Shown: positions 19,909 to 40,609, numbered from the stretch's first letter. The stretch: 48,625 nucleotides of DNA from Deltaproteobacteria bacterium (GCA_015233135.1 JADFYH010000023.1:1-48625), one strand, 5' to 3'. Translations and numbers: made by a program. Notes: generated by a model not told the origin, from the sequence alone.

Positions 19909-19934
19909 TCGTCGATGGCGAGCGCTTTGTGATA

Positions 19935-19967
19935 AAAAAGCCCCGATGAAAATCGGGGCTTTTTTTT
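19935..19967 (+). terminator. Rho-independent terminator after the first beta-helix gene
   Basis: AGCCCCGAT-GAAA-ATCGGGGCT forms a 9-bp GC-rich stem with a 4-nt loop, followed by a run of eight T. It also has an A-run on the other side, so it could work in both directions. Confidence 0.9.
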
Positions 19968-20279
19968 GACACCCCCCTGGGTAAAAATTGCCTTTTTCTA
20001 AAAGAAAAATCCCCTCTCTTTTCAACTTTCCTTGGCATCTCTTAACAAGTTTAATGGGAATGTTTTTTGCCCACCTAAACCCCTGTTAGGGCGAGCGGAA
20101 AAAATCATTATCAAAAAACTGGATGTGAAAGAGAAGGAAAAGTCTCCGGAGTTGATCGGGCGGAAGCTTCTTTGGTCTTTCATTTACGTTGAAAGATTCT
20201 TCTCCTCGACTTCTGCGTGAATTTTAATGCCTGCCTTTTCACACTTTTTCTCATCTGGTTTTTTTGGATAGGGGGGGCT
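19967..20279 (+). promoter_or_regulatory. Duplicated 313-bp leader, copy 2
   Basis: This is the second copy of the leader at 16911-17226, lying between the terminator and the second beta-helix gene. The core (CACCTAAACCCCTGTTAGGGC, continuing through AAAAAACTGGATGTGAAAGAG) is nearly identical, while the part just before the gene has diverged. The open frame here could start at a TTG near 20032 and give 62 residues, but there is no convincing ribosome-binding site. Confidence 0.5.
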
Positions 20280-22331: not shown

Positions 22332-23018
22332 AAGCAATCCAAAAACAACTTGCGTACAATCACTGCGTCTTTCTTTGGAATACCCAAACTGACGGAGGCC
22401 TGTGGCTTCGGTGCTTTCAAAGCGTAGGGTCGTGAGATCATAGAGCACCACATCCACTTCGTGACTTAAAAGATCCCTATCCTGCCAGAATAAATCCAGC
22501 TCAATTTCTTCTTTGTGTTCCGATAAAATACCCAAAGCACGGTAGAGTTGATGCAACTCCGTATCTCCCACAAGCATCTCAGGATAAAAGCGATTTTGCC
22601 AGTGTTCGTAAATCTTGAGTTTAGATCCAGGTTTAACAAAGCGCGAGGCCACCATGGTAAAAATCAATTTTTTAAAATCAAAGCCTAGCTTGGGATGTTT
22701 AGCAGCAATTTTCAAAAGAACTTTATCGATACCACTGGCCCTAAACATGCGTTCTAAAACTAAAAGCGGGCCAAGAATAAAAGTATCTGACACAGAAATA
22801 TTTTTAGCGAGATCCATCAGGGTTAAAACATCTTTGTGTTTACCAATGGCAGAAATCACCTCGTCCATACGATCTTCGCCCGCACGGCCAAGAGACATGA
22901 GGGTGCGCTGTCTGACTTTACCGTCTTCTCGATACGATTCTACAAGATGGTAATAGCTTTGACCGGCAGCATTTGTGGTGGTTCGGATATACACGACAGA
23001 CAAGTAACAAAAGTACAT
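22318..23018 (-). pseudogene. IS1634-like transposase, 3'-truncated
   Basis: The N-terminal 230 residues match IS1634/IS4-superfamily transposases: YIRTTTNAAGQSYYHLVESY, REDGKVRQRTLMSLGR, ASRFVKPGSKLKIYEHWQNR, and the first catalytic Asp region VVLYDLTTLRFES. FGYSKERRSDCTQVVFGLLL follows, where intact proteins continue for about 250 more residues with further catalytic residues. The frame instead runs into the antisense of the beta-helix gene. A GTG at 22992-22994 (VYIRTT) is the more usual family start. No downstream end of the element is present, so it cannot move itself. Confidence 0.8.
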
Positions 23019-27190: not shown

Positions 27191-28567
27191 TTAAAGGTGA
27201 CGCCGTTTTGCTTCTCGTTCTGGCAGATTCATCGCGGCCAGGAGACTGATGACAGAGAGAAACGTGAGATAAATCGCCGGGGCAAAAATGCTGTGATAGC
27301 GGCGAACGAGCCAGGTGGCAACGAGAGGCGCGGAACCGCCAAAGAGACACATGGAGATGTTGTAGCCAATACCGATTGCGCTGTAGCGCAGGCGTGCGGG
27401 AAACAGTTCAACCAGGGTCGCGGGAATCGGCCCGAGGAAAAGGCTCATCAATACGGTGAAGCAGAGCTGAGAAAAAAGAACCAGGACAAATGAACTCTGG
27501 GCGACTAACAAAAAGAGAGGCAAAGAGAGCAGCGTCATCCCGAAAGCACCCATTACCAAAAGAGGTTTTCTGCCCCACTCGTCCGAGAGGCGACCCGTAA
27601 TAGGAATCAAGGTAATCAAAAGCAGCATGGAGAAAGTATTGAGTGCCATCGCGTAGGGCACATGAGGGTGAATAAAGCGGCTCAGCAGTGTGGGCCACCA
27701 GACAAAAAGGAGATAGAAACCACCGCCGACGAGCACGATCAGGGCCGAGGCGTGAAAGATTCGCCCTGGCACCTGGGACATCGCTTCGGCCAAGGGATGT
27801 TCTCCATACTTGCCCTCTTTTTTCATTTGTTCAAACACGGGCGTTTCCGTCAGCTCACTGCGCATCCAGAGCCCCGCCAGACCGATCAATATTCCCGCAA
27901 GAAAAGGTAGACGCCACCCCCAGTCCGCCATGGCTTCAGCTCCGAGGGCCGCGTTGAGCACAAACGCACTGAACGAACCCAACAGGATGCCACCATAGCA
28001 ACTCGCAAAGGTCCAGCTACTGAAATAACCTCGTTGCTCTGGCGGCGCGGTTTCGGCAACAAAGGCAATGGAGCCAATCAACTCTCCACCCACCGAAAGC
28101 CCTTGTATCATGCGTAATAACACAAGAAGGACAGGTGCAAACACTCCAATTTGGGCATGGGTGGGTAATAAACCCATGAGACAGGTGGGCAGAGCCATCA
28201 TCATCACCGAGAGCTGGAGAGCCTTCTTGCGCCCCAGGCTATCGCCAATGTGGCCAAAAATAATTCCCCCAATCGGTCGCATGAGGTAGGCCGCCGCAAA
28301 GACGCTAAACGCACTCAGGAGAGAATCCAGAGGGTCGTTGGAGGGAAAAAACTGCTCGCCGATGACCGGCGCAAAGAAACCAAAAACGGCAAAATCAAAC
28401 CACTCGAGGACGTTGCCAATAATGCCGCCAATCATGTTCCTGAGCAAGGCCCCGGATAGATTGACGAACACGTGCTCCTTGCGCCGCAGTATTTGGGCTT
28501 CGCGGTTGGAGATAATTCCTATCAGTAAATCTGTAGCTTCCCTGGCAGCGGCGTCGTTGGTATCCAT
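27191..28567 (-). CDS. MFS transporter of the metabolite:H+ symporter (ProP/ShiA-like) type
   Basis: The 458-aa protein has about 12 membrane segments and the MFS loop 2-3 motif FGHIGDSLGRKKAL. GNVLEWFDFAVFGFFA, RMIQGLSVGGELIGS and ETAPPEQRGYFSSW are typical of the metabolite:H+ symporter group. The start lies only 7 bp after the last gene of the magnetosome cluster, and by eye its codon use is GC-rich like the cluster and unlike tetR downstream. Magnetosome islands of other bacteria include MFS proteins (MamH, MamZ), but I cannot show it is their counterpart. The first 45 residues may not belong, as no strong ribosome-binding site precedes 28567. Confidence 0.85.
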   Translation of the reverse strand: MDTNDAAAREATDLLIGIISNREAQILRRKEHVFVNLSGALLRNMIGGIIGNVLEWFDFAVFGFFAPVIGEQFFPSNDPLDSLLSAFSVFAAAYLMRPIGGIIFGHIGDSLGRKKALQLSVMMMALPTCLMGLLPTHAQIGVFAPVLLVLLRMIQGLSVGGELIGSIAFVAETAPPEQRGYFSSWTFASCYGGILLGSFSAFVLNAALGAEAMADWGWRLPFLAGILIGLAGLWMRSELTETPVFEQMKKEGKYGEHPLAEAMSQVPGRIFHASALIVLVGGGFYLLFVWWPTLLSRFIHPHVPYAMALNTFSMLLLITLIPITGRLSDEWGRKPLLVMGAFGMTLLSLPLFLLVAQSSFVLVLFSQLCFTVLMSLFLGPIPATLVELFPARLRYSAIGIGYNISMCLFGGSAPLVATWLVRRYHSIFAPAIYLTFLSVISLLAAMNLPEREAKRRHL

Positions 28568-28574
28568 AAACTAT

Positions 28575-28883
28575 TTAGCAAGGAAGCAGAGTCTTGCAAC
28601 GGTGCCGCTTCTTTCGGGAATCCGAGATGCCTAGCGCCAAACCTATGGCACCACCCGCCAATCCGCCAGCTGCCTTTGTCAGGGCTGTGGGAAGCAAGGT
28701 GGATTCGAGGACAGCCCCTATGCCCGTGGTTCCCAGGATGACCGCAATGAAGCCGATCCCGATACCCGCAATGGTCTTCGCGCCCACGAGGAGAAGCTCC
28801 TCGGTATTAAAGTCCTCCTCCAAATCGATCTCGGGAGTAGTGTTTTTTGCCAAAGATTCGTCCTTCAGAATATCTTCATTCAT
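28575..28883 (-). CDS. Small Gly-rich membrane protein at the 3' end of the magnetosome cluster
   Basis: The 102-aa protein has an acidic N-terminus (EIDLEEDFNTEELLL) and two hydrophobic Gly/Ala-rich segments (about 33-57, KTIAGIGIGFIAVILGTTGI; about 66-88, LTKAAGGLAGGAIGLALGIS), then a basic end (SRKKRHRCK). The two-span, Gly-rich layout recalls small magnetosome membrane proteins such as MamC or Mms13, but no motif proves it. The ribosome-binding site is AGGGGAAAATT. It is 21 bp downstream of the next cluster gene. Confidence 0.6.
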   Translation of the reverse strand: MNEDILKDESLAKNTTPEIDLEEDFNTEELLLVGAKTIAGIGIGFIAVILGTTGIGAVLESTLLPTALTKAAGGLAGGAIGLALGISDSRKKRHRCKTLLPC

Positions 28884-28904
28884 AATTTTCCCCTTATTTA
28901 AAAC

Positions 28905-29327
28905 TTAGTAATTTCCAAATACTGACGAAAGTCTGCGAGACTCACTGACACGACCTGTCCCTCTTGATTTTACCGAATGGGTCAATTTGACCGCAGCTCC
29001 GATTCCGGTGCCGGCAACGGTCATACCTACAACAAACGGCGCCACAATGGCATGCGCCGCAATCACCCCGCCGATCAAGGTGACACTTCCATACCCGACC
29101 ACCGCGCCCGCCGCCGCCGCCAAACCAACCCCTTTCAACCTTTTTTTCTTTTCCTCATGGGCGACTGTCTCGTGTGCCCTCTTTTTATCCTGAGCCGCTA
29201 AGGCCGCCAATGCACGGTGTTTATTATTTTCCCGTTTGTTGCAGATCGTCAGATAGCGCCGATGTAAGCGGCACATTTCCTCACTGTATCCGTGATACTC
29301 GCAACCTTTGCAATATTTCAGGTTCAT
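28905..29327 (-). CDS. Small protein with a Cys/His N-terminus and Gly/Ala-rich membrane segments
   Basis: The 140-aa protein starts YCKGCEYHGYSEEMCRLHRR, continuing YLTIC, a possible metal-binding cluster of four cysteines and two histidines. A charged helix follows (AAQDKKRAHETVAHEEKKKR), then hydrophobic Gly/Ala-rich segments (GVGLAAAAGAVVGYGSVTLI, APFVVGMTVAGTGIGAAVK). Its ribosome-binding site (GGAGGAAATT) overlaps the mamB stop, so the pair is coupled. No known family is recognised. Membership of the magnetosome operon is inferred from context. Confidence 0.65.
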   Translation of the reverse strand: MNLKYCKGCEYHGYSEEMCRLHRRYLTICNKRENNKHRALAALAAQDKKRAHETVAHEEKKKRLKGVGLAAAAGAVVGYGSVTLIGGVIAAHAIVAPFVVGMTVAGTGIGAAVKLTHSVKSRGTGRVSESRRLSSVFGNY

Positions 29328-29328
29328 T

Positions 29329-30204
29329 TTAATTTCCTCCTGTCACAAAACCGATGGAGATATCTTTGATTCTTTTTTCGTGTTTCCGGATCAGGACAGC
29401 AACCTCTTCTTCCAGCTTATCCACCTCTTCGACGGTCAAGTTTGACTCTACCTCAAGTTCCAAGTCAACCTTAATAATCTGCCCCATCGATCGTGCTCGG
29501 ATACTTCGGATCCCTGTGATGGTCTTGACAGACTTTATCAATTTCTTGATCCGTAGAGACAGCTCTTCGTCCGAGGAATAATCCATCAGACCCCGTACAG
29601 AATGAATGAGATGCCCGCCGACAATGTAAAATAAAAAGAGTGTAATACCGATCGCGATAACAGGATCTAGATGGCGGATTCCAAGACTGGTGCCAATAAC
29701 CCCGATCAGCACCGCCAGTGACGTAAAGGCATCGGAGCGAACCGCCCAAGCAGCAGCCTTCACCGTGACACTGTTCATTTCATTCCCCACACAGTGAAAA
29801 TATCGATACAAAGACTCATTGGCAACAATCGATGCAATGGCAATCACCGCGGTCGTGACATGAGGAACATGATGAAGCTCTTGAAGGAGCGCCCGCATAT
29901 TGGAAATAAAAAATACCGTGATCACAACTAGAATAGACAGGCTCACCACAGAGGAGGCAACAAACTCGATCTTTCCGTACCCATATGGAAAACGCTCATC
30001 CTCTCCCCTCTTGGCAAAAGAGTGAGTGAACAAGATGGAGGCGGACGACACCATACAAATCGTGGAATGAATCGCCGCAGCTGTCACTCCGGCGGATCCC
30101 CCAAACCATCCGATGTAATACTTTAACAAGGCAAGCGTGAGACTGGTGAAAACACCGGCCCAGGCCGCCTTGACCACACACTCTTCACAGTGTGAATACT
30201 TCAT
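29329..30204 (-). CDS. mamB: MamB-like cation diffusion facilitator with degenerate metal site
   Basis: This 291-aa CDF protein resembles MamB as I recall it: N-terminal C-x2-C (SHCEECVVKAAW), DERFPYGYGKIEFVAS, and NESLYRYFHCVGNEMNS with RSDAFTS in TM5. MamB moves iron into the magnetosome lumen and is a membrane-invagination hub. Here the transport site is eroded: the TM2 acidic residues are Ala43 and Cys50 (TAAAIHSTIC), and the first TM5 ligand is Ala154, so only Asp158 remains. The C-terminal metallochaperone-like domain is intact. It overlaps the next upstream gene by 4 bp. Confidence 0.82.
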   Translation of the reverse strand: MKYSHCEECVVKAAWAGVFTSLTLALLKYYIGWFGGSAGVTAAAIHSTICMVSSASILFTHSFAKRGEDERFPYGYGKIEFVASSVVSLSILVVITVFFISNMRALLQELHHVPHVTTAVIAIASIVANESLYRYFHCVGNEMNSVTVKAAAWAVRSDAFTSLAVLIGVIGTSLGIRHLDPVIAIGITLFLFYIVGGHLIHSVRGLMDYSSDEELSLRIKKLIKSVKTITGIRSIRARSMGQIIKVDLELEVESNLTVEEVDKLEEEVAVLIRKHEKRIKDISIGFVTGGN

Positions 30205-30869
30205 GCTCTCTCCTCAAAATACTCGATGGCTCGAAGCCCGACCTGTCTCGCCTGAAAGATATTCATCCCGCTTCCGAGGATAGCGCCAAGGATGGGTAAG
30301 CGCTGAACAAACCATCTCGTCATGTTCTTCTCATTCACAATAAACAACTGGGTTACAAATCTTTTGGCCAGCATCTGATCAGCCACCCGGGTGGCGGTCT
30401 TGGTCATGGTTCTTTTTGCATTCCGCTTTGACAGATCAAACCCCGAGAGGGAGTCTTTTTTTCCGCACTCCAAACCAACAAGAGGGAGCACCTCAGAAAA
30501 TTTAATCCTCTTGGGTGAAAGGCCATAGAGATTTCCAATCCTCAGCACCATGGTAAACAAGGCCCGAAAAATAAAAAGCTCCTCGGGAATAATAGAGGCA
30601 TACGCCACCCCAGTACCAATAAACGGGATCATCGAAAGGGAAGAAGTCGTCAAACCCGCACGGCTACACTTCCAAATACAGTTTCTAATGACACTCTTTG
30701 CCCTTTCTCTCTCACTCCAGTTCTCATGAACCTCGCTTAAGAGGAGGTTATCCGAAACTATCTCATCCGCAGAAATACTGTAATAGGTGTCACAAATGAC
30801 AGCTGCCAATTTTTCACCCACCGTGACCAAAAAATTGCTTTCCAAATTTTCCAGAGACTCTGCCATCAA
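30201..30869 (-). CDS. EcsC-like protein in the magnetosome operon
   Basis: The 222-aa protein resembles EcsC-family proteins. It has hydrophobic SSLSMIPFIGTGVAYASIIP in the middle and the conserved C-terminal pattern LPILGAILGSGMNIFQARQV, then GLRAIEYFE. EcsC proteins are poorly understood and often membrane-associated. The gene overlaps mamB and the LapA-like gene by 4 bp each (ATGA), so it is translated with them. A role in magnetosome formation is inferred from that coupling only. Confidence 0.65.
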   Translation of the reverse strand: MMAESLENLESNFLVTVGEKLAAVICDTYYSISADEIVSDNLLLSEVHENWSERERAKSVIRNCIWKCSRAGLTTSSLSMIPFIGTGVAYASIIPEELFIFRALFTMVLRIGNLYGLSPKRIKFSEVLPLVGLECGKKDSLSGFDLSKRNAKRTMTKTATRVADQMLAKRFVTQLFIVNEKNMTRWFVQRLPILGAILGSGMNIFQARQVGLRAIEYFEERA

Positions 30870-31135
30870 TCTTCCTCAAGGCGCCTTCGGCGCCGCTCCT
30901 TACCTTTGGCCAGCTGGAACTTGAGCTGACGGATCTTCACTCGAAGCTCTTCTTCCTTGCGGAACACAAAATAATAGCCGGCCAGAAATCCCAAACTAAA
31001 GCACATGAGCATCAGAAATATGGCTTTTAAATGAGCCTGACCATTCAAGAAAACCACCTGCACATCGACGTTGTTCTGAACGACAAAAAGAACCAGAAGA
31101 AATATTGCGATCAGATAAATTGTTTTCTTCAACAT
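30866..31135 (-). CDS. mamL: MamL/LapA-like small membrane protein
   Basis: The 89-aa protein has two membrane spans (about 5-22 and 36-57) and the LapA-type pattern FVVQNNVDVQVVFLNGQ and CFSLGFLAGYYFVF. Its C-terminal tail is strongly basic (KLQFLAKG-like region ending KGKERRRRR, residues about 77-85). MamL of alphaproteobacterial magnetosomes is a small two-span protein with a basic C-terminal helix that helps bend the membrane, and this fits. A plain LapA-domain protein is the alternative; the operon position favours MamL. Confidence 0.6.
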   Translation of the reverse strand: MLKKTIYLIAIFLLVLFVVQNNVDVQVVFLNGQAHLKAIFLMLMCFSLGFLAGYYFVFRKEEELRVKIRQLKFQLAKGKERRRRRLEED

Positions 31136-31161
31136 CTTTTCATCTCCATCTTTGTAGTTAC

Positions 31162-31527
31162 TTAGGGCGTTCCAGGTTGTTTAGACATCCGCTCGGACTG
31201 CATCAGCTCTCCGCATTCCGGGCAAATGGGGAGGCCTATCTGCCCACACTCAGGGCAGATAAAAAGGCCGTTGGCCAAGGGCTGCATGATCTTTTTGCAG
31301 GCCGCACAAACCGGGTAGCCATGAGTGTGATCTCTGGGACAGAAAACACTTCCCTCGGCCATCCGTGCAGGGGCCGTAAAAGCCACCTTATCCACGTGAT
31401 GTCGGATATCATCGGCATTCATCGTCCTCTTGCTGCCGGACAATACAATAACGACCGCGGCCGTAATCATGACAATCACGCTCACCAATAAAGGCCACAA
31501 TCTTTCGTTCTTGCTTCTTTCTTCCAT
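31162..31527 (-). CDS. Membrane-anchored multi-zinc-ribbon protein of the magnetosome cluster
   Basis: The 121-aa protein has one membrane span (residues 11-30) and then seven cysteines: CPRD at 63, CAAC at 74-77, CPEC at 91-94 and CPEC at 102-105. The blocks CAACKKIM and CPECGELM share a CPxCxxxM form with the next two small proteins. The pairs suggest zinc or other metal binding, with the Cys-rich domain probably outside the cytoplasm. I do not recognise a named family beyond rubredoxin-like or zinc-ribbon knuckles. Confidence 0.65.
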   Translation of the reverse strand: MEERSKNERLWPLLVSVIVMITAAVVIVLSGSKRTMNADDIRHHVDKVAFTAPARMAEGSVFCPRDHTHGYPVCAACKKIMQPLANGLFICPECGQIGLPICPECGELMQSERMSKQPGTP

Positions 31528-31536
31528 TATTTTTCT

Positions 31537-31860
31537 CTACTTAAAGTACGTGGCGCTCATCTCGCGACCACACACGGGACAAACTGCCTTCCCGTTGATA
31601 TCGTAATCCGGAAGCCCGGTCGCCCCATGCACGGGGCAGACAAACTGTCCGGCCTGTTTCGTCACCACCGACTTTTTTTGCTCGGGAACAGGTGGCAGAG
31701 TTTGAGGCGTGGTGGTGCCGGCCGCCATGGAATACGTGACAGCGGTCTTCATATCGCCTTTCCATTTATCGTATCCGTTGATCGCGACATAGAGCGCGGT
31801 GCTCAACAGAACGACCACGAAGATGACGACCATCCACAATCCAACTTTTCCCTTTTGCAT
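31537..31860 (-). CDS. Membrane-anchored heavy-metal-binding-domain-like protein
   Basis: I place the start at 31860 (MQKGKVGLWM), after GGGGAGGTTTGAG, giving 107 residues. A membrane span lies at 8-26. The C-terminus has FVCPVHGATGLPDYDINGKA followed by VCPVCGREM, which closely follows the pattern YTCPMHP..xxPGxCPxCGM of the heavy-metal-binding domain found in copper efflux proteins. Cys75, Cys94 and Cys97 with Met101 could bind a soft metal or iron. It lies 13 bp downstream of the mamO-like gene. Confidence 0.7.
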   Translation of the reverse strand: MQKGKVGLWMVVIFVVVLLSTALYVAINGYDKWKGDMKTAVTYSMAAGTTTPQTLPPVPEQKKSVVTKQAGQFVCPVHGATGLPDYDINGKAVCPVCGREMSATYFK

Positions 31861-31873
31861 CTCAAACCTCCCC

Positions 31874-32806
31874 TTAAGGAACCGCCCCCCAAGCCTCTTT
31901 GGCAAAATTAATGGGTACCGCGAAACCAATCCCGGTGAAACTATCTCCTTGTACGTAGGAAGCAAAAGCAATTCCGACCACCTCGCCATCGAGGTTCACC
32001 AGGGGCCCGCCGGCATTCCCCTTGTTGATAGTGGCATCCGTCAGAATGGCATCGCGCACCGCCATGCCTTCCACCGTCACGTCTCTTTTTCCGCTGACGA
32101 TTCCAGAGGTCACTGTGCCCGACAACGAAAACGGATTGCCCAGCACCATCACCCCGTCACCCGTCCTCAGACGATTAGAATCCCCCATCCGAACGAACGG
32201 GAATTGCTGTCCCGCTGCTGCACGGATCTTGCCGATCACGAGTGGAGAGTCTGGATCGCGGGCAATCACACGGGCCGTGAATTGAGTCTGACCCGCACGA
32301 TAAAGCGAGACCTGAAGGTCGTTGCCGTCGCCCACCACATGCTTCGTCGTCAGAAATAAACCCTGCGGATCGATAATCACGCCTGATCCCACCGCCTGAT
32401 CCGGGGTCAGCGGAAAAGCATCGCCCATCTTGATACCGCTGGCCGCCGCATCGGCATTCTTCGACGGCATCACAATAACTTTCAGAACCGCGGGTCGAAC
32501 CTGCTGCACCAGTGAATGAATGCTTTCATCCAAAGCCCCACCGGCCCCCGGAAGCGGGGCCTGTACCGCAATACCTCGCCCTTCCAACGGCGGATTGTTG
32601 CTCGGCACCTGCTGCCACTCCGGGTTCATTTCCCCTTCTCCGACCACCCCATTCCGGATAGGGGTCGGTTGGGGCCAGAATTTTTTCAAGAAAAAACCGA
32701 CCACAAAGGCCATGATCCCCAGCTTAAACAACAAGATCCAAACTGCCGATCGGATGACAATTTTCTTCGTGAGACGAAATTCTTTGAGTCGCCTGAATGT
32801 CCCCAC
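31874..32806 (-). CDS. mamO: MamO-like degenerate trypsin-fold protein
   Basis: The 310-aa protein has an N-terminal membrane anchor (about 19-41) and an HtrA/trypsin fold. The histidine is kept (TTKHVVGDG, His156), the usual DLAL block reads DPDSPLVIGKI, and the nucleophile motif GNSGGP has become GNAGGP (Ala265 for Ser). It is therefore very probably inactive as a protease, as described for MamO of Magnetospirillum, which instead binds metal and promotes mineral nucleation. The start is a GTG at 32806, with GAGGG upstream. It directly follows the intact protease gene. Confidence 0.75.
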   Translation of the reverse strand: MGTFRRLKEFRLTKKIVIRSAVWILLFKLGIMAFVVGFFLKKFWPQPTPIRNGVVGEGEMNPEWQQVPSNNPPLEGRGIAVQAPLPGAGGALDESIHSLVQQVRPAVLKVIVMPSKNADAAASGIKMGDAFPLTPDQAVGSGVIIDPQGLFLTTKHVVGDGNDLQVSLYRAGQTQFTARVIARDPDSPLVIGKIRAAAGQQFPFVRMGDSNRLRTGDGVMVLGNPFSLSGTVTSGIVSGKRDVTVEGMAVRDAILTDATINKGNAGGPLVNLDGEVVGIAFASYVQGDSFTGIGFAVPINFAKEAWGAVP

Positions 32807-32807
32807 C

Positions 32808-33563
32808 TTATTTCACCCTCATCCTCTCGGTCGAAAAATTTATGGCCACGTCCATGGGGATCGCAAACCCCTGTCCTGCGAAGCCGCCTCGAAAAGGGTC
32901 CTCCGCCAAAATAGCAGAATTAATTCCAACCACTTCCCCACGCAGATTCACCAGCGGCCCCCCGCTATTCCCCTGATTGATGGGGGCATCCGTCTGAATC
33001 AGCCCCTCGTAAACCAGCCCTCCCACTTCAAGAGTACGTCCAGTGGCACTGACAATGCCACTCGTGACCGTGTGCGAAAGGCCGAAAGGATTTCCGATAG
33101 CAACCACCCGATCCCCCGTCTTCACTTGCGCTCCCGCGTTGCTCAGGGCCACTCGTGCTACAGGGAAGGTCTCTCCCGCATGAGGCTTAATGCGGATCAA
33201 CGCCAGATCCAGCTTCTTGTCGGAACCTACTACTCTTCCTCTATAGTTCTTGTTCTGCACACGCCACAGAGTTACTTCGATATTTTGAGAACCCCCCACC
33301 ACATGTTCGTTAGTGAGGATATAACCGGCCTCCGAAATCAGAACCCCCGAACCGATACTCTGGACAAAACTTCCATTGCCCATCGACTTCAATGCCTTGA
33401 TATTCACGGTTGCAGGCCTTGCCTCAGCCAGCGCTTCTTTCGTCAGGGTCTCAATCGCTTTGGGCCCCACAGCACCTTGTTGAGGAAGGATTTGCGTCAC
33501 CCCCGCCCTCAGAGGAAGAGAAAACATCAGGATTAAAAACATTAAAATAAATAGCTGTACCAT
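32808..33563 (-). CDS. mamE: HtrA-type serine protease without PDZ (MamE N-terminal type)
   Basis: The 251-aa exported protease has an N-terminal hydrophobic segment (VQLFILMFLILMFSLPL) and a complete triad: His87 (TNEHVVGG), Asp119 (KLDLALIRI) and Ser200 (NQGNSGGPL). It has no PDZ domain; the PDZ domains are in the adjacent gene upstream. Split MamE genes (N-terminal protease and C-terminal PDZ part) are known in deltaproteobacterial magnetosome islands. It probably processes magnetosome proteins such as the MamO-like partner during crystal growth. Confidence 0.75.
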   Translation of the reverse strand: MVQLFILMFLILMFSLPLRAGVTQILPQQGAVGPKAIETLTKEALAEARPATVNIKALKSMGNGSFVQSIGSGVLISEAGYILTNEHVVGGSQNIEVTLWRVQNKNYRGRVVGSDKKLDLALIRIKPHAGETFPVARVALSNAGAQVKTGDRVVAIGNPFGLSHTVTSGIVSATGRTLEVGGLVYEGLIQTDAPINQGNSGGPLVNLRGEVVGINSAILAEDPFRGGFAGQGFAIPMDVAINFSTERMRVK

Positions 33564-33579
33564 TTTGCCCTCACCCTCT

Positions 33580-35160
33580 TTACCTCTTCCCTAACGATGC
33601 CGATCCGAAGACCGCGACGCTTGGAACCAGCTTGCCTTCGCGGAAGGCCTGAATCACATCCTCTATGGAACCAAAAACGCCGGCATAAACGGCGATCTTG
33701 GCATCGCTCAGCGCATCGTAGGCCCGCGGGCCTATCCGGCCAGTGATCACCGCATCAATATGATTTTGCATCAGCCATTTGGCAGCCAAAATCCCCGTCG
33801 CCTCGGACTGCGTATTGGCAACCGCATTCAGGGTCCCTTTTTTCAAATCGACGAGGATGAAATAGGGACTCTTCGTAAACATCGGTGACACCTGGTCCGC
33901 TGAGGTGGAGCCCATGGCCGCCACGGCCACAATCCTCATGCCATTATCCACCGGCAACTGCTGGGCGACCTGTGAGGCAGCCGCAGAGTTGGGAAGCTGA
34001 TTGCCCTGGCGATCTAATCCTGGCGAAGCAATGGTGACAAAACGATGTCGACCGCCACGCCACACATCCACCATCGCACCTTTGGCCCCTTCAGTCGCAT
34101 CTTTGAACTGCCGAAGCGATGCTGTCGGCATCCCGTTGATGGCCATGATAATGTCGCCTACCTGAAATCCAGCATTGAAGGCCGGCCCGATGGAAATGCC
34201 GTCCACCGCGATTCCCCGGGTCTCTGGAGGCAGTCCCAATTCCTTGGCTTCCAGAGGATCAATAGGAACCACTGTCAGTCCCAGCCAGCTGGCTTCCACC
34301 TCAATATCCGCTGGCGGCAACTCTTGAGGAGGCAAGCCTGTCGGAGAGTTTGGCAACACCGCCGCTGTCACCCCCACCTCTTGCGTAAAACCATTTCTGA
34401 TAATTTCAAGTTTGATCAGGGCCCCCGGACTCTTGCCCTGAAGCACCTCACTGAAACCGATTCGGTCGTTCACGGGAACCTTATCGACCGTGCGCACCAC
34501 ATCGCCTCTCACCAGGCCACTTTGCGCCGCCGGTGAACCCGGCACCACGTACGAGATGATCACTCCACGCGGGTCAGCGAGCTTCAGCTGACTCATCATC
34601 ACCGCATCCAGGGACTGGACATCCAGGCCCAGCCACGCATTTCCATTCACATCCGGAGTGGCATTGGGCCTCGTGGGCGTCATGCCCACAGCGGGGACAT
34701 TGGGATTAACAGCCTCAGCTGCGGGTCGGGCCTTCAAAACTAAACTCAAGGATTCCTTTTTATTGTTTCGCAGCACTCTCAACTTGATCCGATCACCGTC
34801 TTTCTTGCCTTGTAGAAAAGTCGCTAAATCCGCCGTACTGGTAATTTTGACCGTGTCTACACTGGTAATCACATCCGCTCGTTTCAAACCGCCCAGCTCG
34901 GCCGGCGAATTCGGAAATACCTTTTGGACATAAACTCCAGGCTCCGCAGAAGTGACATCGTCTAGGTCAGCACCCAACCAGACGGAACCCGCTGCCTGAT
35001 TCAGCGCGATGGCAATCGGCGCCTCTTCGGGACGCCTGGGCAAGGGCTTGTCAATGAAATACAGCATCGTCCAGATCACGAGGGCGATCGTCAACCCGAT
35101 GATAATAATCGTTCGCAGATCAAAGTTCTTCCAGGGGCTTCTTGAAGATGGCTGGCTCAA
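33580..35160 (-). CDS. Membrane-anchored triple-PDZ protein with C-terminal NifX/NifB-like domain (MamE C-terminal type)
   Basis: The 526-aa protein has one membrane span (residues 17-36) and three PDZ domains (about 50-130, 170-260 and 285-370; ligand loops near WLGADL, WLGLDV and WLGLTV). The last 110 residues are a dinitrogenase iron-molybdenum cofactor-type domain (VAAMGSTSADQVSPMFTKSP, AVITGRIGPRAYDAL). It has no CxxCH haem site. With the stand-alone protease downstream it resembles the C-terminal half of MamE. The NifX-like domain suggests binding of a metal cluster or iron. It overlaps the next gene by 4 bp. Confidence 0.75.
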   Translation of the reverse strand: MSQPSSRSPWKNFDLRTIIIIGLTIALVIWTMLYFIDKPLPRRPEEAPIAIALNQAAGSVWLGADLDDVTSAEPGVYVQKVFPNSPAELGGLKRADVITSVDTVKITSTADLATFLQGKKDGDRIKLRVLRNNKKESLSLVLKARPAAEAVNPNVPAVGMTPTRPNATPDVNGNAWLGLDVQSLDAVMMSQLKLADPRGVIISYVVPGSPAAQSGLVRGDVVRTVDKVPVNDRIGFSEVLQGKSPGALIKLEIIRNGFTQEVGVTAAVLPNSPTGLPPQELPPADIEVEASWLGLTVVPIDPLEAKELGLPPETRGIAVDGISIGPAFNAGFQVGDIIMAINGMPTASLRQFKDATEGAKGAMVDVWRGGRHRFVTIASPGLDRQGNQLPNSAAASQVAQQLPVDNGMRIVAVAAMGSTSADQVSPMFTKSPYFILVDLKKGTLNAVANTQSEATGILAAKWLMQNHIDAVITGRIGPRAYDALSDAKIAVYAGVFGSIEDVIQAFREGKLVPSVAVFGSASLGKR

Positions 35161-36431
35161 AGTGTTTTCCTCCTACCCGAAAATCCCGGGCCGATAGGCA
35201 CGTCATTTGGAGTCGCCGGAGCCCCCACCGCTTTCAAGCTTCCCTGTTTGAAGGCATCTATCGCCCCTCGGACATCTCCATTCACTCCCGGGTAAAGGGT
35301 GATTCCAAGATTAGTGAGCCCTGTCGCTGCGCCTTGACCGATGGCCCCGCAGATAACCGCCTCCGCTCCCAGATCCATCAGATCCTGTGCCACTTGCAGC
35401 CCCGTGCCACCTTTATTTTGAACCACCTTGAAGGTATTTTTCTTGAGATCGACGACAATGAAATAAGGAGAACTCGTCAGTTCGTTGGATAGGGCGTCAT
35501 TCACATTTTTGCCTGTGGACGCGACGGCAATCACCGAGGCGGTCCGCCCCTCTTCGATCACGGCCGTTTTGGGATCTGCCTGTGCAAAAGCAATAGGATT
35601 GCCCTGGGGAGCCGTCCCCTGGGGACCCTGCGTTCCCAGAGCCACCTGGGCCGCAATGTCCGGCATGCTAAATCGGAATATTTTTTCTCTTTGTTGACGC
35701 CATACATTCACACGCACCGTATCTCCGGCGGCAAAAGTACCCAAGGCGCGCTCCAACTCGGCGATGGTCTCGACCTTGCGAGTGTCGACCATGTAAAACA
35801 TATCTCCATTTTCCATCCCCAAGTTGGCAGCCAGCCCCCCCGGCAATACCCGCGTAATCACCGCGCCCTTCTTGTCCGGAAGATCGAGCTTGAGAGTCAT
35901 CGCCGTAGTAGCCTCCGTCAACTCCAGCCCAAGAATACTTTGAGCATCCGCTACCGTTAGAGCCACCGGAGTTCCCTGAGCATCGAGAACTTGATGACAG
36001 ACTGCACAGGGCCCCCAGTAGGGATGAGTCATGGTTGCTGTAACCGGAATTGAACCTCCATTAATTGGAGCACGGCTCTTGGGGCCGATCACCTCATGAC
36101 ATTTTGTGCAATCCTGCCCGTAGTTGGGATGAGTCATCACATCGCTCAGTTTGATGGGAGGGATACCCCCACCACCCTTCGCAGCAGCAAGCTGGCCCTG
36201 CATCACCATCGGTGGGGGCATTCCGCCACCCGCCACAGGAATGGCCGCATTCTTAGCTGTTGCCGAAGGATGAATCGCTGCACGATACTCTGCCGCATAG
36301 ACAGGGTCCCGCTTCATTTTGATTTCGTGATACGTCACCCATCCCATCGTGAGTAGAAACACGGCAACCAGAAGCCCCAGCAGCGGCCTTAATTCTTTTT
36401 TACAAAAGGGTGTCGGCTCTTTTTTAGTCAT
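35157..36431 (-). CDS. mamP: Magnetochrome-PDZ-NifX fusion protein (MamP/MamE C-terminal type)
   Basis: The 424-aa protein has a membrane span (about 15-33) and two c-type haem sites in magnetochrome context: THPNYGQDCTKCH (haem Cys at 108, 111) and THPYWGPCAVCH (142, 145). A PDZ domain follows (about 165-255), then a NifX/NifB-like domain (about 305-405, VASTGKNVNDALSN, AVICGAIGQGAATGL). Magnetochromes are found only in magnetosome proteins (MamE, MamP, MamT, MamX) and set the Fe(II)/Fe(III) balance for magnetite. The domain order differs from classic MamP (PDZ then haems), so mamP is a best-fit name. Confidence 0.8.
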   Translation of the reverse strand: MTKKEPTPFCKKELRPLLGLLVAVFLLTMGWVTYHEIKMKRDPVYAAEYRAAIHPSATAKNAAIPVAGGGMPPPMVMQGQLAAAKGGGGIPPIKLSDVMTHPNYGQDCTKCHEVIGPKSRAPINGGSIPVTATMTHPYWGPCAVCHQVLDAQGTPVALTVADAQSILGLELTEATTAMTLKLDLPDKKGAVITRVLPGGLAANLGMENGDMFYMVDTRKVETIAELERALGTFAAGDTVRVNVWRQQREKIFRFSMPDIAAQVALGTQGPQGTAPQGNPIAFAQADPKTAVIEEGRTASVIAVASTGKNVNDALSNELTSSPYFIVVDLKKNTFKVVQNKGGTGLQVAQDLMDLGAEAVICGAIGQGAATGLTNLGITLYPGVNGDVRGAIDAFKQGSLKAVGAPATPNDVPIGPGFSGRRKTL

Positions 36432-37375
36432 GATTCATTCCCCAAAAACGGTTTGAGGCGGACGGTGACTTCACATTCAAAATCGAGCTTGGACCGCACC
36501 GCTCGAGAGACACCCGCCTTGATTCCATCAAATTGCTCCACCTTAATATCTTTGTCTACGAACACCGCCACTTCCACCTCGGAGGTCGACCCTAGTTCCC
36601 GGGTACGCACGTTCTTTACGCCTTTGATACCAGAAACCTCTGCGACGGCCTTTCGGATTTCAGCAATCGTCTTGTCATCCATCGAATAATCCATGAGCTT
36701 CTTGACAGCTTCCAGAAACATGTCTGCTGACGACTTCAGGATAAGGATCGCAACGATGATCGCCGCAATCGAATCCAAAACAGGAAGTGAGATCTTTGCA
36801 CCAACGATTCCCACCAGCACGGCGGCTGAAGAATAGGTATCTACCCTCGATTCGAGGGAAACTGCGGCGACCGAGGGCTTGTTGTAAAGCACATCGACGC
36901 AATGGGCTTGACGACACATGAGTTCATTCACAATGATGGAAATGAGTGCGCCCCAGGCGGTAACCAGATGCGGGGCAACGTAGCGACCGAGGTAAACATC
37001 CCGCGCGCCGTCGATGAAGATATAGATGCCCAGGATCAACAAGAAAAACGAAATAATCAATGCCGCGATGTACTCGACCTTGCCTCGTCCGTAGGGATAG
37101 TCCTTGCTTCGAGGCTTGTCCGCAACTTTCAAGGCAATAAACATCATAAAGCTCGCCAGCAGATCCCCCAGCGAATGAATGGCATCTGCCACCAGGGCCT
37201 TAGAACCCCCAACGATTCCCAGGTAGGCTTTCACGATGATAAGAAACGTGTTCCCCGCCACATTGACGGTAGTGACATGCCTGAGACAACGCTCGCAACT
37301 CTCTCCAGGCTCAAATTGCGCCGTCACCTCATCCTCAGAATCTTCAGAATCTATGGTTGTTTTCGAATTAGCCAT
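36428..37375 (-). CDS. mamM: MamM-like cation diffusion facilitator
   Basis: The 315-aa CDF transporter has an acidic N-terminal tail with C-x2-C (ESCERCLRHV), then KAYLGIVGGSKALVADAIHS and LGDLLASFMM, close to MamM as I remember it. Metal ligands are kept: Asp64 and Asp71 in TM2, Glu175 and Asp179 in TM5 (ESRVDTYSS). The C-terminal regulatory domain is complete. It would bring iron into the magnetosome lumen, probably as a heterodimer with the MamB-like protein at 29329-30204. It overlaps mamP by 4 bp. Confidence 0.82.
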   Translation of the reverse strand: MANSKTTIDSEDSEDEVTAQFEPGESCERCLRHVTTVNVAGNTFLIIVKAYLGIVGGSKALVADAIHSLGDLLASFMMFIALKVADKPRSKDYPYGRGKVEYIAALIISFFLLILGIYIFIDGARDVYLGRYVAPHLVTAWGALISIIVNELMCRQAHCVDVLYNKPSVAAVSLESRVDTYSSAAVLVGIVGAKISLPVLDSIAAIIVAILILKSSADMFLEAVKKLMDYSMDDKTIAEIRKAVAEVSGIKGVKNVRTRELGSTSEVEVAVFVDKDIKVEQFDGIKAGVSRAVRSKLDFECEVTVRLKPFLGNES

Positions 37376-37380
37376 GAGGA

Positions 37381-37488
37381 TTACTTCAGTGAATCCTTGT
37401 CGTTCATTCGTTTCTCAAGCGCCACCTGCTTCTTATAAACCATCCAGATTCCTACCAAAAGACCGATCAGCAATAAGAGTTCAATCAT
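37381..37488 (-). CDS. 35-aa single-span micro-protein in the magnetosome operon
   Basis: The short frame MIELLLLIGLLVGIWMVYKK continues QVALEKRMNDKDSLK and stops with TAA at 37381. The ATG at 37488 follows CGGAGACTTT. It fills the otherwise empty gap between the ferric-reductase-like gene and mamM, 5 bp before the mamM start. One membrane span and a charged tail are typical of small accessory membrane proteins. Confidence 0.6.
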   Translation of the reverse strand: MIELLLLIGLLVGIWMVYKKQVALEKRMNDKDSLK

Positions 37489-37522
37489 AAAGTCTCCGTA
37501 AAAAATCGTAGTTACGAAAAAT

Positions 37523-38008
37523 CTAGAAAACGTAATGCCCCTTCAAAAGACAAAGGCACATGATAAAAAACACCACCATCTGCGTGTGCAAAAAATAAAG
37601 TCCTTTGCCCACTACGGGATGCAATCCGTCCATCAGATATTTGAAGCGCAGAACCACTCCCCCAAAAGTCAGCCAACCCATCAGGATCAAGGCAACCCAC
37701 AGATAGGTGTTGTGCCAATGCGTCACATAGCAATGCAGGCACGCCGCCACAAACAGGATGATGTTAATCCAGCAGTGGACTCTGAGAAATGTTGCAAAAA
37801 AAGCGTCGTCCTTCAGCATGAAAAACAGGCGCAGATACTTCGCCGGAATATAAGACTGCGCGGCGATGAAAAGCACCATACAAAGGTTTCCCGAACCCGT
37901 CGCCAGATTATAGTCGCTCCAGTAGGCAAACAAGATGCAGGCGAGTATTAACGCCAAAATCAAAAGCGTTTTCAGTCGGATGTCGGCACTGGAAAAATAC
38001 CTATACAC
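37523..38008 (-). CDS. Ferric-reductase-like/cytochrome b-type membrane protein
   Basis: I place the start at the GTG at 38008, after AGGAAGG and 11 bp past the mamQ stop, giving 161 residues with about five membrane spans. Histidines occur in pairs on hydrophobic helices: H-x13-H (HCWINIILFVAACLH) and H-x10-H (HPVVGKGLYFLH). This is the pattern of transmembrane haem b ferric reductases. No flavin or NAD domain is attached, so it would need an electron donor. A role in Fe(III) reduction for magnetite is inferred from the operon. An upstream start would overlap mamQ by 125 bp. Confidence 0.65.
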   Translation of the reverse strand: MYRYFSSADIRLKTLLILALILACILFAYWSDYNLATGSGNLCMVLFIAAQSYIPAKYLRLFFMLKDDAFFATFLRVHCWINIILFVAACLHCYVTHWHNTYLWVALILMGWLTFGGVVLRFKYLMDGLHPVVGKGLYFLHTQMVVFFIMCLCLLKGHYVF

Positions 38009-38018
38009 ACATGCCTTC

Positions 38019-38792
38019 CTATGGAGCCCTCTTTGGGTCCGTGTTCTGGGGTGCCTCTTTATTTTCAAACATAGGCACGAAATTGGCCCCCCCCTTGTCC
38101 GGCTCGAAATAGGGGAGCGGCTTATATCTAAAAATAAAACCAAAAAAGTTCCCAGGGAAGGTCTGCAGCGCCGTCAGGTAATAATTGGTCGACTCGTTAT
38201 AGCGCACGCGGGCGGCCGCCAGCTCTTTTTCACTATCCATGACAGCAGTAACCGCGTAGTGAAACTCGGAGCTGAACTTCAGGTCGGGGTACTGCTCGGC
38301 CAAGGCAAAAAACTGACCCAGGATGGGATTGGCTTTCTTGATTTCTTCCACCGCGGCCGGATCCATTTTTATCTCCGACGGCATTTTCTCTCGACCCACC
38401 ATGGCGGTTTTGATTTCCGCCACGTATTTGAAGATTTCTTTCTCATGCTGGATGTAGGCGGAGGCCAGATTTGAAATATTGACGCTTAAATCGCGTCTCA
38501 TCTGCATGTAAACGACAACGGAAGACCCATCTCTCCGCGCGTTCCACTCCAGCTTGTAGAGGTGATTGTAGTAATATACGGAGACCAGCAACATCAAACA
38601 AGCACTCAAGATCATCCAGCGCCGTCGCAGAACATACCCCAGACGCCAGACCACCCCGTGGATCCCTTTACGAGCCCCAGCCCACTTGCCCAAATCCTCA
38701 AAATCATCCTCAGGACCCGATTCAAGATCCTCCTGATTCGATCGACCCGGAGAAAGCTTATTAATAATGTGTTTGACCCTTGACTTCATCAA
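38019..38792 (-). CDS. mamQ: MamQ-like LemA-family protein
   Basis: The 257-aa protein has a membrane span near residues 55-75 (MILSACLMLLVSVYYYNHLY) and a LemA fold: helices with WNARRDGSSVVVYMQMRRDL and the family end ARVRYNESTNYYLTALQTFP. A long acidic N-terminus precedes the span. MamQ is required for magnetosome membrane invagination in Magnetospirillum. It overlaps mamA by 4 bp, and the ferric-reductase-like gene follows at 11 bp. Confidence 0.78.
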   Translation of the reverse strand: MMKSRVKHIINKLSPGRSNQEDLESGPEDDFEDLGKWAGARKGIHGVVWRLGYVLRRRWMILSACLMLLVSVYYYNHLYKLEWNARRDGSSVVVYMQMRRDLSVNISNLASAYIQHEKEIFKYVAEIKTAMVGREKMPSEIKMDPAAVEEIKKANPILGQFFALAEQYPDLKFSSEFHYAVTAVMDSEKELAAARVRYNESTNYYLTALQTFPGNFFGFIFRYKPLPYFEPDKGGANFVPMFENKEAPQNTDPKRAP

Positions 38793-39595
38793 TCGAGATC
38801 CTCGGTGGATTCGAGTTCAAGAACTTTCTTGAAACACTTGCCAGCTTCCGCTGCATCTCCGGCACTTTGAAGTGCAAAACCCAGGTGTTGAAAATATTTC
38901 GGTTCAGCCGGATTTAATTCGGCGGCCTTTCTAAACGACGCGATCGACTGCTCCAAATCACCCTTTTTGTCTTGTGCTACACCCATCTTGTAGAAAATTT
39001 CGCTGTTGTCCGGACTCATCTCAGAGACTTCTTTCAAGGTCGCCAGGCATTGATCATATTTTTTAGCTCGAAGATAGGCATTGCCCAGTTGATACAAAGC
39101 GTCTTTGCTCTTGGGGAGTAGGATCAATGTTTTTTCAAAACACTCAATGGCCTTGTCTGACTCGTCCAGATTGTAATAGGTCTTCCCCAAAAGATAGAAA
39201 ATCTGTGGACTCCCACGCCCCGCCGCAATCCCGGCCTCAAAAGCTTCTGCAGCTTTTTGATACTCACCCCGTTTGAGATACTTCTTGCCAAGATTCTCAT
39301 GGATCTGACCTTTTTCTTTCTCATCGAGAGAAAAAATATTGTTGTAGGCAGCAATAGCCCTGGCCAGAAGCTTTCCAAGCACTACCATGGTGATGTGCAT
39401 GGAATAATCAAAGCCCACCTGAAACGAGGCTTTTTTTTCAGTCTTTTCTGATGTCCGCTCTGCCTCTTTCCGAAACTCGGTTTTTCCTTGAGGAGACTCA
39501 AGCTCTCCCCTGGCTTCAAGCGTTTTAGATCCAGATTCAAACTCCTTAGACCCCTCTTCTACATCCTGTTGTTTATTTTCTTTATGTTTGCTCAT
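38789..39595 (-). CDS. mamA: MamA-like TPR scaffold protein
   Basis: The 268-aa protein has a Lys/Glu-rich N-terminus of about 70 residues and then about five TPR repeats: LGKKYLKRGEYQKAAEAFEA, LGKTYYNLDESDKAIECFEK, LGNAYLRAKKYDQCLATLKE, MGVAQDKKGDLEQSIASFRK and LGFALQSAGDAAEAGKCFKK. MamA coats the magnetosome surface and recruits other proteins. TPR proteins are common, so the name rests on the operon, size and repeat number. It overlaps mamQ by 4 bp. Confidence 0.78.
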   Translation of the reverse strand: MSKHKENKQQDVEEGSKEFESGSKTLEARGELESPQGKTEFRKEAERTSEKTEKKASFQVGFDYSMHITMVVLGKLLARAIAAYNNIFSLDEKEKGQIHENLGKKYLKRGEYQKAAEAFEAGIAAGRGSPQIFYLLGKTYYNLDESDKAIECFEKTLILLPKSKDALYQLGNAYLRAKKYDQCLATLKEVSEMSPDNSEIFYKMGVAQDKKGDLEQSIASFRKAAELNPAEPKYFQHLGFALQSAGDAAEAGKCFKKVLELESTEDLD

Positions 39596-39619
39596 ACTTG
39601 TGTTCCTCCCTGCCTTTCT

Positions 39620-39814
39620 TTAATCCGTATCATTTTTCTTATGATTGTTGTCACTGTTGTCACTCATGATGGCAATCCAAATAGCAAAAACCCCAAAGCC
39701 GACTAACAAGATCGGCACGATACCGCTCAAGAGATCCTTGAGATAGTACCACTGGTCAACTACTCCCCAGATCCCCACCCCTAATAATGTCAAACCAAAG
39801 ACGATATGAACCAT
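39620..39814 (-). CDS. mamI: MamI-like small two-span membrane protein, copy 2
   Basis: The 64-aa protein has two membrane spans (VHIVFGLTLLGVGIWGVVDQ; IVPILLVGFGVFAIWIA) joined by a WYYLKDLLSG loop. The G-x-W/Y-G-V-x(3)-W/Y-x(5)-LL-x-G-x(2)-P-x-L pattern matches MamI as I recall it. MamI is needed for bending the inner membrane into magnetosomes. Its end is Asp/Asn/Lys-rich (SDNSDNNHKKNDTD). It starts 3 bp after the paralog at 39818-40024. Confidence 0.72.
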   Translation of the reverse strand: MVHIVFGLTLLGVGIWGVVDQWYYLKDLLSGIVPILLVGFGVFAIWIAIMSDNSDNNHKKNDTD

Positions 39815-39817
39815 AAT

Positions 39818-40024
39818 TTAACTTATCTTTTTTGAAAGTCCGGCTATGAGTGCGACGATTCCAATTCCGATGAGAACTAGCGGCCCCACACCCTTTAGCA
39901 CATCGATGACATTGTAGTATTCGTCGTAAACCCCATAGATTCCGTTCGCTAGCGCAAACACCCCTACGCCCAGCTCAATCTTTCGTTTTAGACTCATGCC
40001 CCTGACATTTTCAACAATTCTCAT
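39818..40024 (-). CDS. mamI: MamI-like small two-span membrane protein, copy 1
   Basis: The 68-aa protein has the same layout as its neighbour: spans ELGVGVFALANGIYGVYDEY and GPLVLIGIGIVALIAGL with a YYNVIDVLKGV loop. Its N-terminus is longer and basic. The pair looks like a tandem duplication of mamI that has diverged. The ribosome-binding site is AGGAGGGG upstream of 40024. Confidence 0.72.
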   Translation of the reverse strand: MRIVENVRGMSLKRKIELGVGVFALANGIYGVYDEYYNVIDVLKGVGPLVLIGIGIVALIAGLSKKIS

Positions 40025-40042
40025 TCAAACCCCTCCTTATTG

Positions 40043-40609
40043 TCACTTTAGAGCCCCATTTTTTGCCCAATCGATAATGACCTGTGCATCCTTTTCTGCG
40101 AAACGATTCATTGACCCCCCGGGCCGGACCAACAACACCAGAAGACCATTGTCGACATAGGTTTTGACCTTCTCATAGGTCATCAAGTTACGAAGCGGTC
40201 CATCGTGACAGCGAGAACAATTCACCTCGATAGTCCCAGAAATCGTATTGGTGTAAGTTACAGCCTCTACAGGGGCTTGCGCAGAAGGGCTTGCGGTGGG
40301 GGCCACAACAGTGGGTCCCGGAGGATCTGCCGCAGGCCCACCAAACGCGGCTGGTTTCACTACTTGCGGCGCCTGTATTCCAATACTTCCATTCCTATCC
40401 GTACGGGGGGAACCCACGTACAGGGCCCGATGCATGAGACGCTTGCAGGCCGGACACTTGATCTGACCACAGCTTTGGACCCCTGGGTGTGTCAGGACAG
40501 TCTCATCGTAGGGGCAGATACAATCCTGCGCTACAGGAGCCCAGGCAACTCCCCCCCCAAGGGAGAAAGCAACGACTACCAGGAAAATCAATGGTTTCAA
40601 CATTCGCAC
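40043..40609 (-). CDS. Periplasmic mono-haem c-type cytochrome with CPxCxxxM motif; first gene of the magnetosome operon
   Basis: The 188-aa protein has a signal peptide (1-24), an N-terminal Cys block (DCICPYDETVLTHPG, CPACKRLM), a Pro/Ala linker and a C-terminal cytochrome c module with CSRCH (131-135) and the axial Met in PGGSMNRF (Met167), ending DAQVIIDWAKNGA. The Cys block resembles the motif of the proteins at 31162 and 31537. It would carry electrons in the periplasm or magnetosome lumen. It is the first gene, after an AT-rich upstream region. Confidence 0.72.
   Translation of the reverse strand: MRMLKPLIFLVVVAFSLGGGVAWAPVAQDCICPYDETVLTHPGVQSCGQIKCPACKRLMHRALYVGSPRTDRNGSIGIQAPQVVKPAAFGGPAADPPGPTVVAPTASPSAQAPVEAVTYTNTISGTIEVNCSRCHDGPLRNLMTYEKVKTYVDNGLLVLLVRPGGSMNRFAEKDAQVIIDWAKNGALK

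Follow-up and report, generated by a model that had tools for sequence, protein, structure and literature searches.

The mamAB-type operons of two Desulfobacterota, Desulfovibrio magneticus RS-1 and Desulfamplus magnetovallimortis BW-1, follow the order mamQ - mad2 position - (mamB) - fmpB - fmpA - mamE - mamO - ... - mamM, as read from the RS-1 locus numbers (PMC4287615; PMC13200544). In strain RS-1, the protein joining magnetochrome, PDZ, and NifX domains is FmpB, and that with three PDZ domains is FmpA (PMC4287615). Magnetotactic Bdellovibrionota, including genus CAIRTR01, possess Mad28 without MamK, the latter being absent from all described islands of that phylum, and bullet-shaped magnetite has been observed (PMC13200544). 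One of these published islands belongs to "Oligoflexia bacterium" Kiruna3_bin-3974 (genus CAIRTR01, class UBA1018 / Bdellonasia; PMC13200544). In UBA10199, the magnetite-type Mam proteins of the genomes nDJH6_bin20 and nXX_bin1 separate in trees, and transfer versus tree artefact was left undecided (PMC7602337). Descent of magnetosomes has been argued to be mainly vertical (PMC7602337), and a first inter-phylum transfer has been reported, into Nitrospirota (PMC9376291).

Gene Content and Order of the Island

Eighteen open genes, all on the minus strand and joined by 4-bp overlaps or short gaps, fill positions 28575-40609 of the window, that is, of the whole 48,625-nucleotide stretch analysed (table 1). 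An earlier sequence-only reading had described about 17 same-strand genes; strand and tight packing hold, while the count is corrected to 18. From the operon 5′ end, a CxxCH protein is followed by MamI1, MamI2, MamA, MamQ, and a His-rich membrane protein, then by MamB, the FmpB/MamP-like and FmpA-like proteins, and the MamE-type and MamO-like proteases, and in the 3′ part by two CxxC proteins, a LapA-domain protein, an EcsC-like protein, MamM, and two small proteins. This order is of the RS-1/BW-1 (Desulfobacterota) type, in line with the non-alphaproteobacterial arrangement recognized earlier, and the magnetochrome, PDZ, and NifX architecture of FmpB occurs in both. The host differs from RS-1 and BW-1 in having no canonical MamK match, a NifX domain on the FmpA-like protein as well, MamE and MamO without TauE domains, and several island-specific small genes. 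With the islands of Magnetospirillum MSR-1 and AMB-1 it shares MamA, B, I, M, and Q, MamE homologues, and MamO- and MamP-like proteins, but gene order is different, MamE is split, and MamK is lacking; the MamH, MamN, and Mms models matched no island protein in the scans made.

Table 1. Features of the island and the adjoining transporter gene (positions in the window)
Feature	Position	Strand	Evidence
MFS metabolite:H+ symporter-like transporter, candidate island gene	27191..28567	-	GC3; phylum distribution; 67-70% copies beside Bdellovibrionota islands
Small glycine-rich membrane protein, island-specific	28575..28883	-	54-71% identity, same place in G060/G406/G236
Small protein with CxxC motif and hydrophobic segment	28905..29327	-	38-49% identity to G060/G236
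MamM-like CDF iron transporter	29329..30204	-	NF033615, 209 bits; CDF tree: with MamM of L041, 100/99
EcsC-like (weak) membrane protein	30201..30866	-	PF12787 E=0.005, below cut-off; 44-48% in G060/G406
LapA-domain small membrane protein	30866..31135	-	PF06305 above cut-off; MamL models: no match
Membrane-anchored CxxC / CPxCG protein (zinc-ribbon or rubredoxin-like)	31162..31527	-	Weak zinc-ribbon matches; 53-59% in three Bdellovibrionota islands
Second CxxC-type membrane protein	31537..31860	-	Reading frame, start shifted inward from 31989 to inner ATG; relatives 54-59%
MamO-like degenerate trypsin-type protease	31874..32806	-	Trypsin_2; His retained, Asp and Ser (GNAGG) gone
MamE-type protease domain, His-Asp-Ser intact, without PDZ	32808..33563	-	NF040960, 163 bits; Trypsin_2; aligned triad
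FmpA / MamE-Cter-like: three PDZ and NifX-type domain	33580..35160	-	PDZ x3; PF02579 E=2.6e-17
FmpB / MamP-like: two magnetochrome CxxCH, PDZ, NifX-type domain	35157..36431	-	PF18509, 42 bits (cut-off 30.4); PDZ; PF02579
MamB-like CDF iron transporter	36428..37375	-	NF033616, 231 bits; CDF tree: with MamB of L041, 100/100
Multi-helix membrane protein with conserved His, probably mad2 position	37523..38017	-	43-71% conservation between mamQ and mamB elsewhere
MamQ (LemA family)	38019..38792	-	NF040966 E=1.7e-18; PF04011 E=1.7e-24
MamA (TPR protein)	38789..39595	-	NF040959, 168 bits; next TPR family 72 bits
MamI copy 2	39620..39814	-	NF040963 E=3.3e-17
MamI copy 1	39818..40024	-	NF040963 E=7.4e-13
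Secreted/anchored protein, CxxC pairs and one CxxCH heme site	40043..40609	-	Sequence; Mad1-like by content only

Island proteins were assigned to families by NCBIfam and Pfam profile searches. Every NCBIfam Mam equivalog score lies under NCBI's curated cut-off, and the proteins are thus divergent homologues, which fits a host from a divergent phylum; nonetheless, the best named family is the Mam model for MamM, MamB, MamQ, MamA, and MamI. The MamM/MamB-like CDF transporters, LemA and TPR proteins, and two MamI-like proteins of the sequence-only reading are all recovered in this way, the CDFs scoring highest, among the named CDF models, with those of MamM and MamB. Its magnetochrome sites and PDZ proteins are likewise found, the former above cut-off and the latter as three PDZ domains in the FmpA-like protein and one PDZ in the FmpB-like protein. 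The reading had named, as grounds against itself, grouping of the CDF, LemA, and PDZ genes with housekeeping families and of the magnetochrome sites with unrelated cytochromes. In a phylogeny built from 61 CDF proteins, taken from magnetotactic genomes and others, both island CDFs fall among magnetosome MamB and MamM, apart from the ordinary CDFs, which form their own clade (100/99); the heme sites, for their part, fall into the magnetochrome family. The core genes mamA, B, I, M, and Q are clustered, and a protease, a pseudoprotease, and a magnetochrome-PDZ protein (the mamE, mamO, and mamP functions) are present by domains and catalytic residues, on separate genes as in Desulfobacterota. The conserved order, with up to 18 homologues in three Bdellovibrionota genomes and most of the core in two from Desulfobacteraceae, rules out chance. 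It is near certain that the island is a magnetosome gene cluster; its core is of the mamAB type, a new member of an already known kind of system. The earlier proposal, either a capacity for magnetosome formation or inheritance of the island, still holds, with magnetite as the predicted product. Beyond that reading, the analysis adds a second island part on another contig, Mad28 without a MamK match, and a probable transfer between phyla. A search of a phage collection gave distant CDF matches only, and the PF11783 profile matched nothing, controls included, and is hence uninformative.

The protein at 30866-31135, MamL-like in the sequence-only reading, was matched by its LapA domain alone and by none of the MamL family models. 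For the His-rich membrane protein at 37523-38017, homologues occupy the interval from mamQ to mamB in Bdellovibrionota and Desulfobacteraceae and also in G044, the other host-phylum genome with magnetosome genes; its structure prediction is of low certainty (mean pLDDT 58.8). The CxxCH protein at 40043-40609 has relatives at 53-57% identity in the Bdellovibrionota genomes G060, G406, and G236; in Desulfobacteraceae it is represented by three copies in tandem (46-50%). Elsewhere in the window, two adjacent large repeat-rich secreted proteins occupy 17227-23018; the second ends at a transposase-like gene (22206-23018), by which it was probably truncated.

Proteases, Fmp Proteins, and MamM

The FmpB-like protein matches, by sequence, the solved MamP structure 4jj0 and NifX/NifB structures. 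Two trypsin-type domains correspond to the intact and the degenerate protease noticed earlier, His-Asp-Ser being present in one and Asp and Ser lost in the other. By alignment, the MamE-type triad is kept in the host island and in the related Bdellovibrionota islands. In the MamO-like protease, His is kept and Asp lost in all four related islands; the catalytic Ser is lost in the host and G236 and kept in G060 and G406, a pattern resembling stepwise protease decay. Magnetospirillum MamO is a degenerate protease fused to a TauE domain. A domain scan of the host protein found no TauE domain and, given a degenerate protease without it, we name the protein MamO-like rather than proven MamO. Where CDF proteins usually have their metal site, MamM carries HxxxC and AxxxD, a form common to all four related islands and absent from Desulfobacteraceae MamM.

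The altered metal-site positions of MamM and the missing catalytic residues of the MamO-like protease could also be taken as signs of a silent or decayed island from which magnetosomes are no longer made. We regard this as very unlikely: the MamM change is common to the four related islands, MamO-type proteins are degenerate by nature, the MamE triad is retained, all 18 of the 18 frames are open, and the Feo, actin, and MFS genes described below are open too, contig end aside.

A Second Part of the Island and a Candidate Transporter Gene

The host genome (2.61-Mb, 98.3% complete, 0.08% contamination) holds the island in two pieces on separate contigs. On contig C18, positions 44249-55613 encode two FeoB, two DtxR-type regulators (one FeoA-fused), one CDF-like protein, the third MamI of the genome, and a pair of MreB/ParM-like proteins; the contig then breaks off within the gene for a Mad28-like actin, of which the C-terminal half is present. 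The MreB/ParM-like pair, together with a 166-aa protein, lies at 51572-54746 (L011/L012), adjoining mamI and mad28, and the proteins of this stretch have relatives at 32-67% identity on the island contig of G406. For mamK, the best match in the host genome reaches 72 bits (cut-off 400), comparable to MreB-looking matches in other genomes; since no described Bdellovibrionota island has MamK either, we do not treat it as defining. Mad28-like proteins were found in 8 of the 8 magnetosome genomes tested and in neither of the two host-phylum genomes without Mam genes. Searches of PDB sequences with the actin-like proteins returned nothing useful.

Next to the island, the MFS gene at 27191-28567 has an island-like GC3 (0.61), occurs in 2 of 46 host-phylum genomes, precisely the two with Mam genes, and has copies at 67-70% identity adjoining Bdellovibrionota islands. 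Given these three features, we propose it as a candidate island gene, and the island probably stretches to it. Until now uncounted as such, this transporter is, on sequence grounds, a possible new magnetosome gene.

Nearest Islands and the Phylum of the Host

Among named genomes, the best match is contig CAIRTR010000220.1 of Kiruna3_bin-3974 (G060). All 18 host-island genes recur there in identical order at 38-71% protein identity (MamB 71%), and FeoB, DtxR-FeoA, MFS, and Mad28 are present too, with no MamK match. In contrast, G060 belongs to another phylum (RpoB 64% and MutS 44% identical to the host), and the host feo/actin block is on a separate contig. G406 and G236 carry the same island, with Mad28/other actin-like genes on the contig of the mam block. 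Identity of the three Bdellovibrionota islands to that of the host is 38-74% per gene (MamB 66-71%), about 50-70% being typical.

In an RpoB tree the host falls among members of its own phylum, whereas G060, G406, and G236 cluster with other Bdellovibrionota. Host RpoB is 68-76% identical to that of its own phylum and about 63-65% to that of the three others, and an RpoC tree confirms the placement of the host. Bdellovibrionota are mostly predatory bacteria. For the host phylum we examined 46 genomes, all of one class, G060 not among them; for that of G060, which is separate from the host's group, 369 were searched. L041, a locus with a matching island, was ruled out as a close host relative by MutS and RpoB. 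The host phylum is probably UBA10199, a name inferred from phylum size, position, and the two published magnetotactic UBA10199 genomes, nDJH6_bin20 and nXX_bin1 (PMC7602337); the host genome may be one of these or a relative of them. One of the two has two island kinds, as does G044. The second, divergent magnetosome-like cluster of G044 (L013; G044:C171, 2009-17942) is without magnetochrome CxxCH, displays CxxC..CPxCG motifs and PTAG repeats, and is possibly greigite-type.

Probable Transfer between Phyla

A tree of eight concatenated island proteins pairs the host with G236 (95.8/93), and G060/G406 lie next to this pair; the island of G044 is distant from that of the host and pairs with other Bdellovibrionota. 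The mad28 tree, built on the separate contig C18, gives the same grouping (host and G236, 97/97, 87% identity). Topology tests reject monophyly of the host-phylum islands (p-AU 4e-41), monophyly of the Bdellovibrionota islands (p-AU 2e-54), and RpoB trees uniting the island carriers (p-AU 1.4e-6 or less). Because simple vertical inheritance is thereby rejected, transfer between phyla is best supported, and we consider it likely, from these sequence comparisons, that the mamAB-type core came to the host lineage in this way, its nearest relatives being the Bdellovibrionota islands. Trees with the host branching outside these three Bdellovibrionota islands survive the test (p-AU 0.066), and the direction of transfer is therefore only suggested. 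The identities of only 50-70% argue for an old transfer and so leave a small probability to ancient duplication with differential loss.

Under such vertical descent, two island kinds would have coexisted in the ancestor shared by Bdellovibrionota and the host phylum, and different lineages would have kept different ones. The two phyla are indeed neighbours in the first RpoB tree (91/90), and both island kinds are present in both. Yet two full islands would have had to persist through deep time and then be lost in all but 2 of 46 host-phylum genomes. Path lengths also speak against it: the island/RpoB ratio is 0.65-0.78, the lowest of all, in the five pairs that link the host, G236, and G060/G406 across lineages, at least 0.93 for all remaining pairs, and 3.2 for host versus G044. 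Moreover, the host island nests with that of G236 rather than outside those of Bdellovibrionota, at both loci, and its base composition stands out (GC3 0.575 vs 0.454 for the genome, p=6e-10). We thus judge vertical descent unlikely. The raised GC fits a donor of ~50% GC (G060-like), not the nearest island, G236 (about 41-43%).

That same deviating composition, and a flanking gene order common to no relative in the phylum, might instead suggest that the island of a co-sampled Bdellovibrionota cell was misassembled or misbinned into the host genome. This explanation is scarcely credible. The island is embedded in a single contig, flanked by 27 kb and 8 kb of native DNA; its tetranucleotide profile resembles the host most (r 0.89), ahead of G060 (0.83) and G236 (0.82), and the genome, as given above, has very low contamination; C18, with native genes on one side, repeats the pattern, and the nearest known copies are far from identical. 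In each compared bin, too, the island flanks match their own genome in tetranucleotides, which makes contamination of those bins unlikely. As to the insertion site, host-phylum relatives carry a VWA gene but no common neighbours, and an empty site is not reconstructible.

Transfer between phyla remains our preferred reading. No description of transfer between these two phyla was found in the literature searched, and it is apparently undescribed, although transfer was already named as an option for UBA10199 sequences (PMC7602337). On a wider scale, we lean toward a scenario in which a MamK-less, Mad28-based island, with iron supply genes and the MFS transporter, passed one or more times between Bdellovibrionota and another phylum, and in which a second, different island kind crossed between the same two phyla (G044 with G061, G139, G135, and G140).

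Proposed Working of the System

All biochemical steps, magnetite over greigite, chain formation, and the direction of transfer are here inferred, with roles taken from established family functions. MamI, MamQ, and MamB would shape the inner membrane into a vesicle, coated by MamA. MamB and MamM would exchange Fe2+ for protons, with Fe2+ supplied by the FeoB encoded on C18. The intact MamE-type protease would set off maturation, and the MamO-like pseudoprotease may aid nucleation. A balance of Fe2+ and Fe3+ suited to magnetite might be kept by the FmpB-like magnetochrome together with the CxxCH protein (40043-40609) and the His-rich membrane protein (37523-38017), while Mad28 could align the vesicles in place of the missing MamK. 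Other Mad28 proteins have already been expressed in a mamK deletion strain of Magnetospirillum gryphiswaldense. Bullet-shaped magnetite is expected, since it was seen in magnetotactic Bdellovibrionota of the class of Kiruna3_bin-3974, from a sampling that also yielded a member of its genus (PMC13200544).

Implications

Whether magnetosomes are ancestral or transferred is in dispute, and the host island offers a testable case between two other phyla, one with mad28 as a second, independent locus and with accessory genes that match. Islands with Mad28 and without MamK now extend beyond Bdellovibrionota. If repeated transfers are true, magnetotaxis in these phyla would be a repeatedly transferred, not an ancestral, trait.
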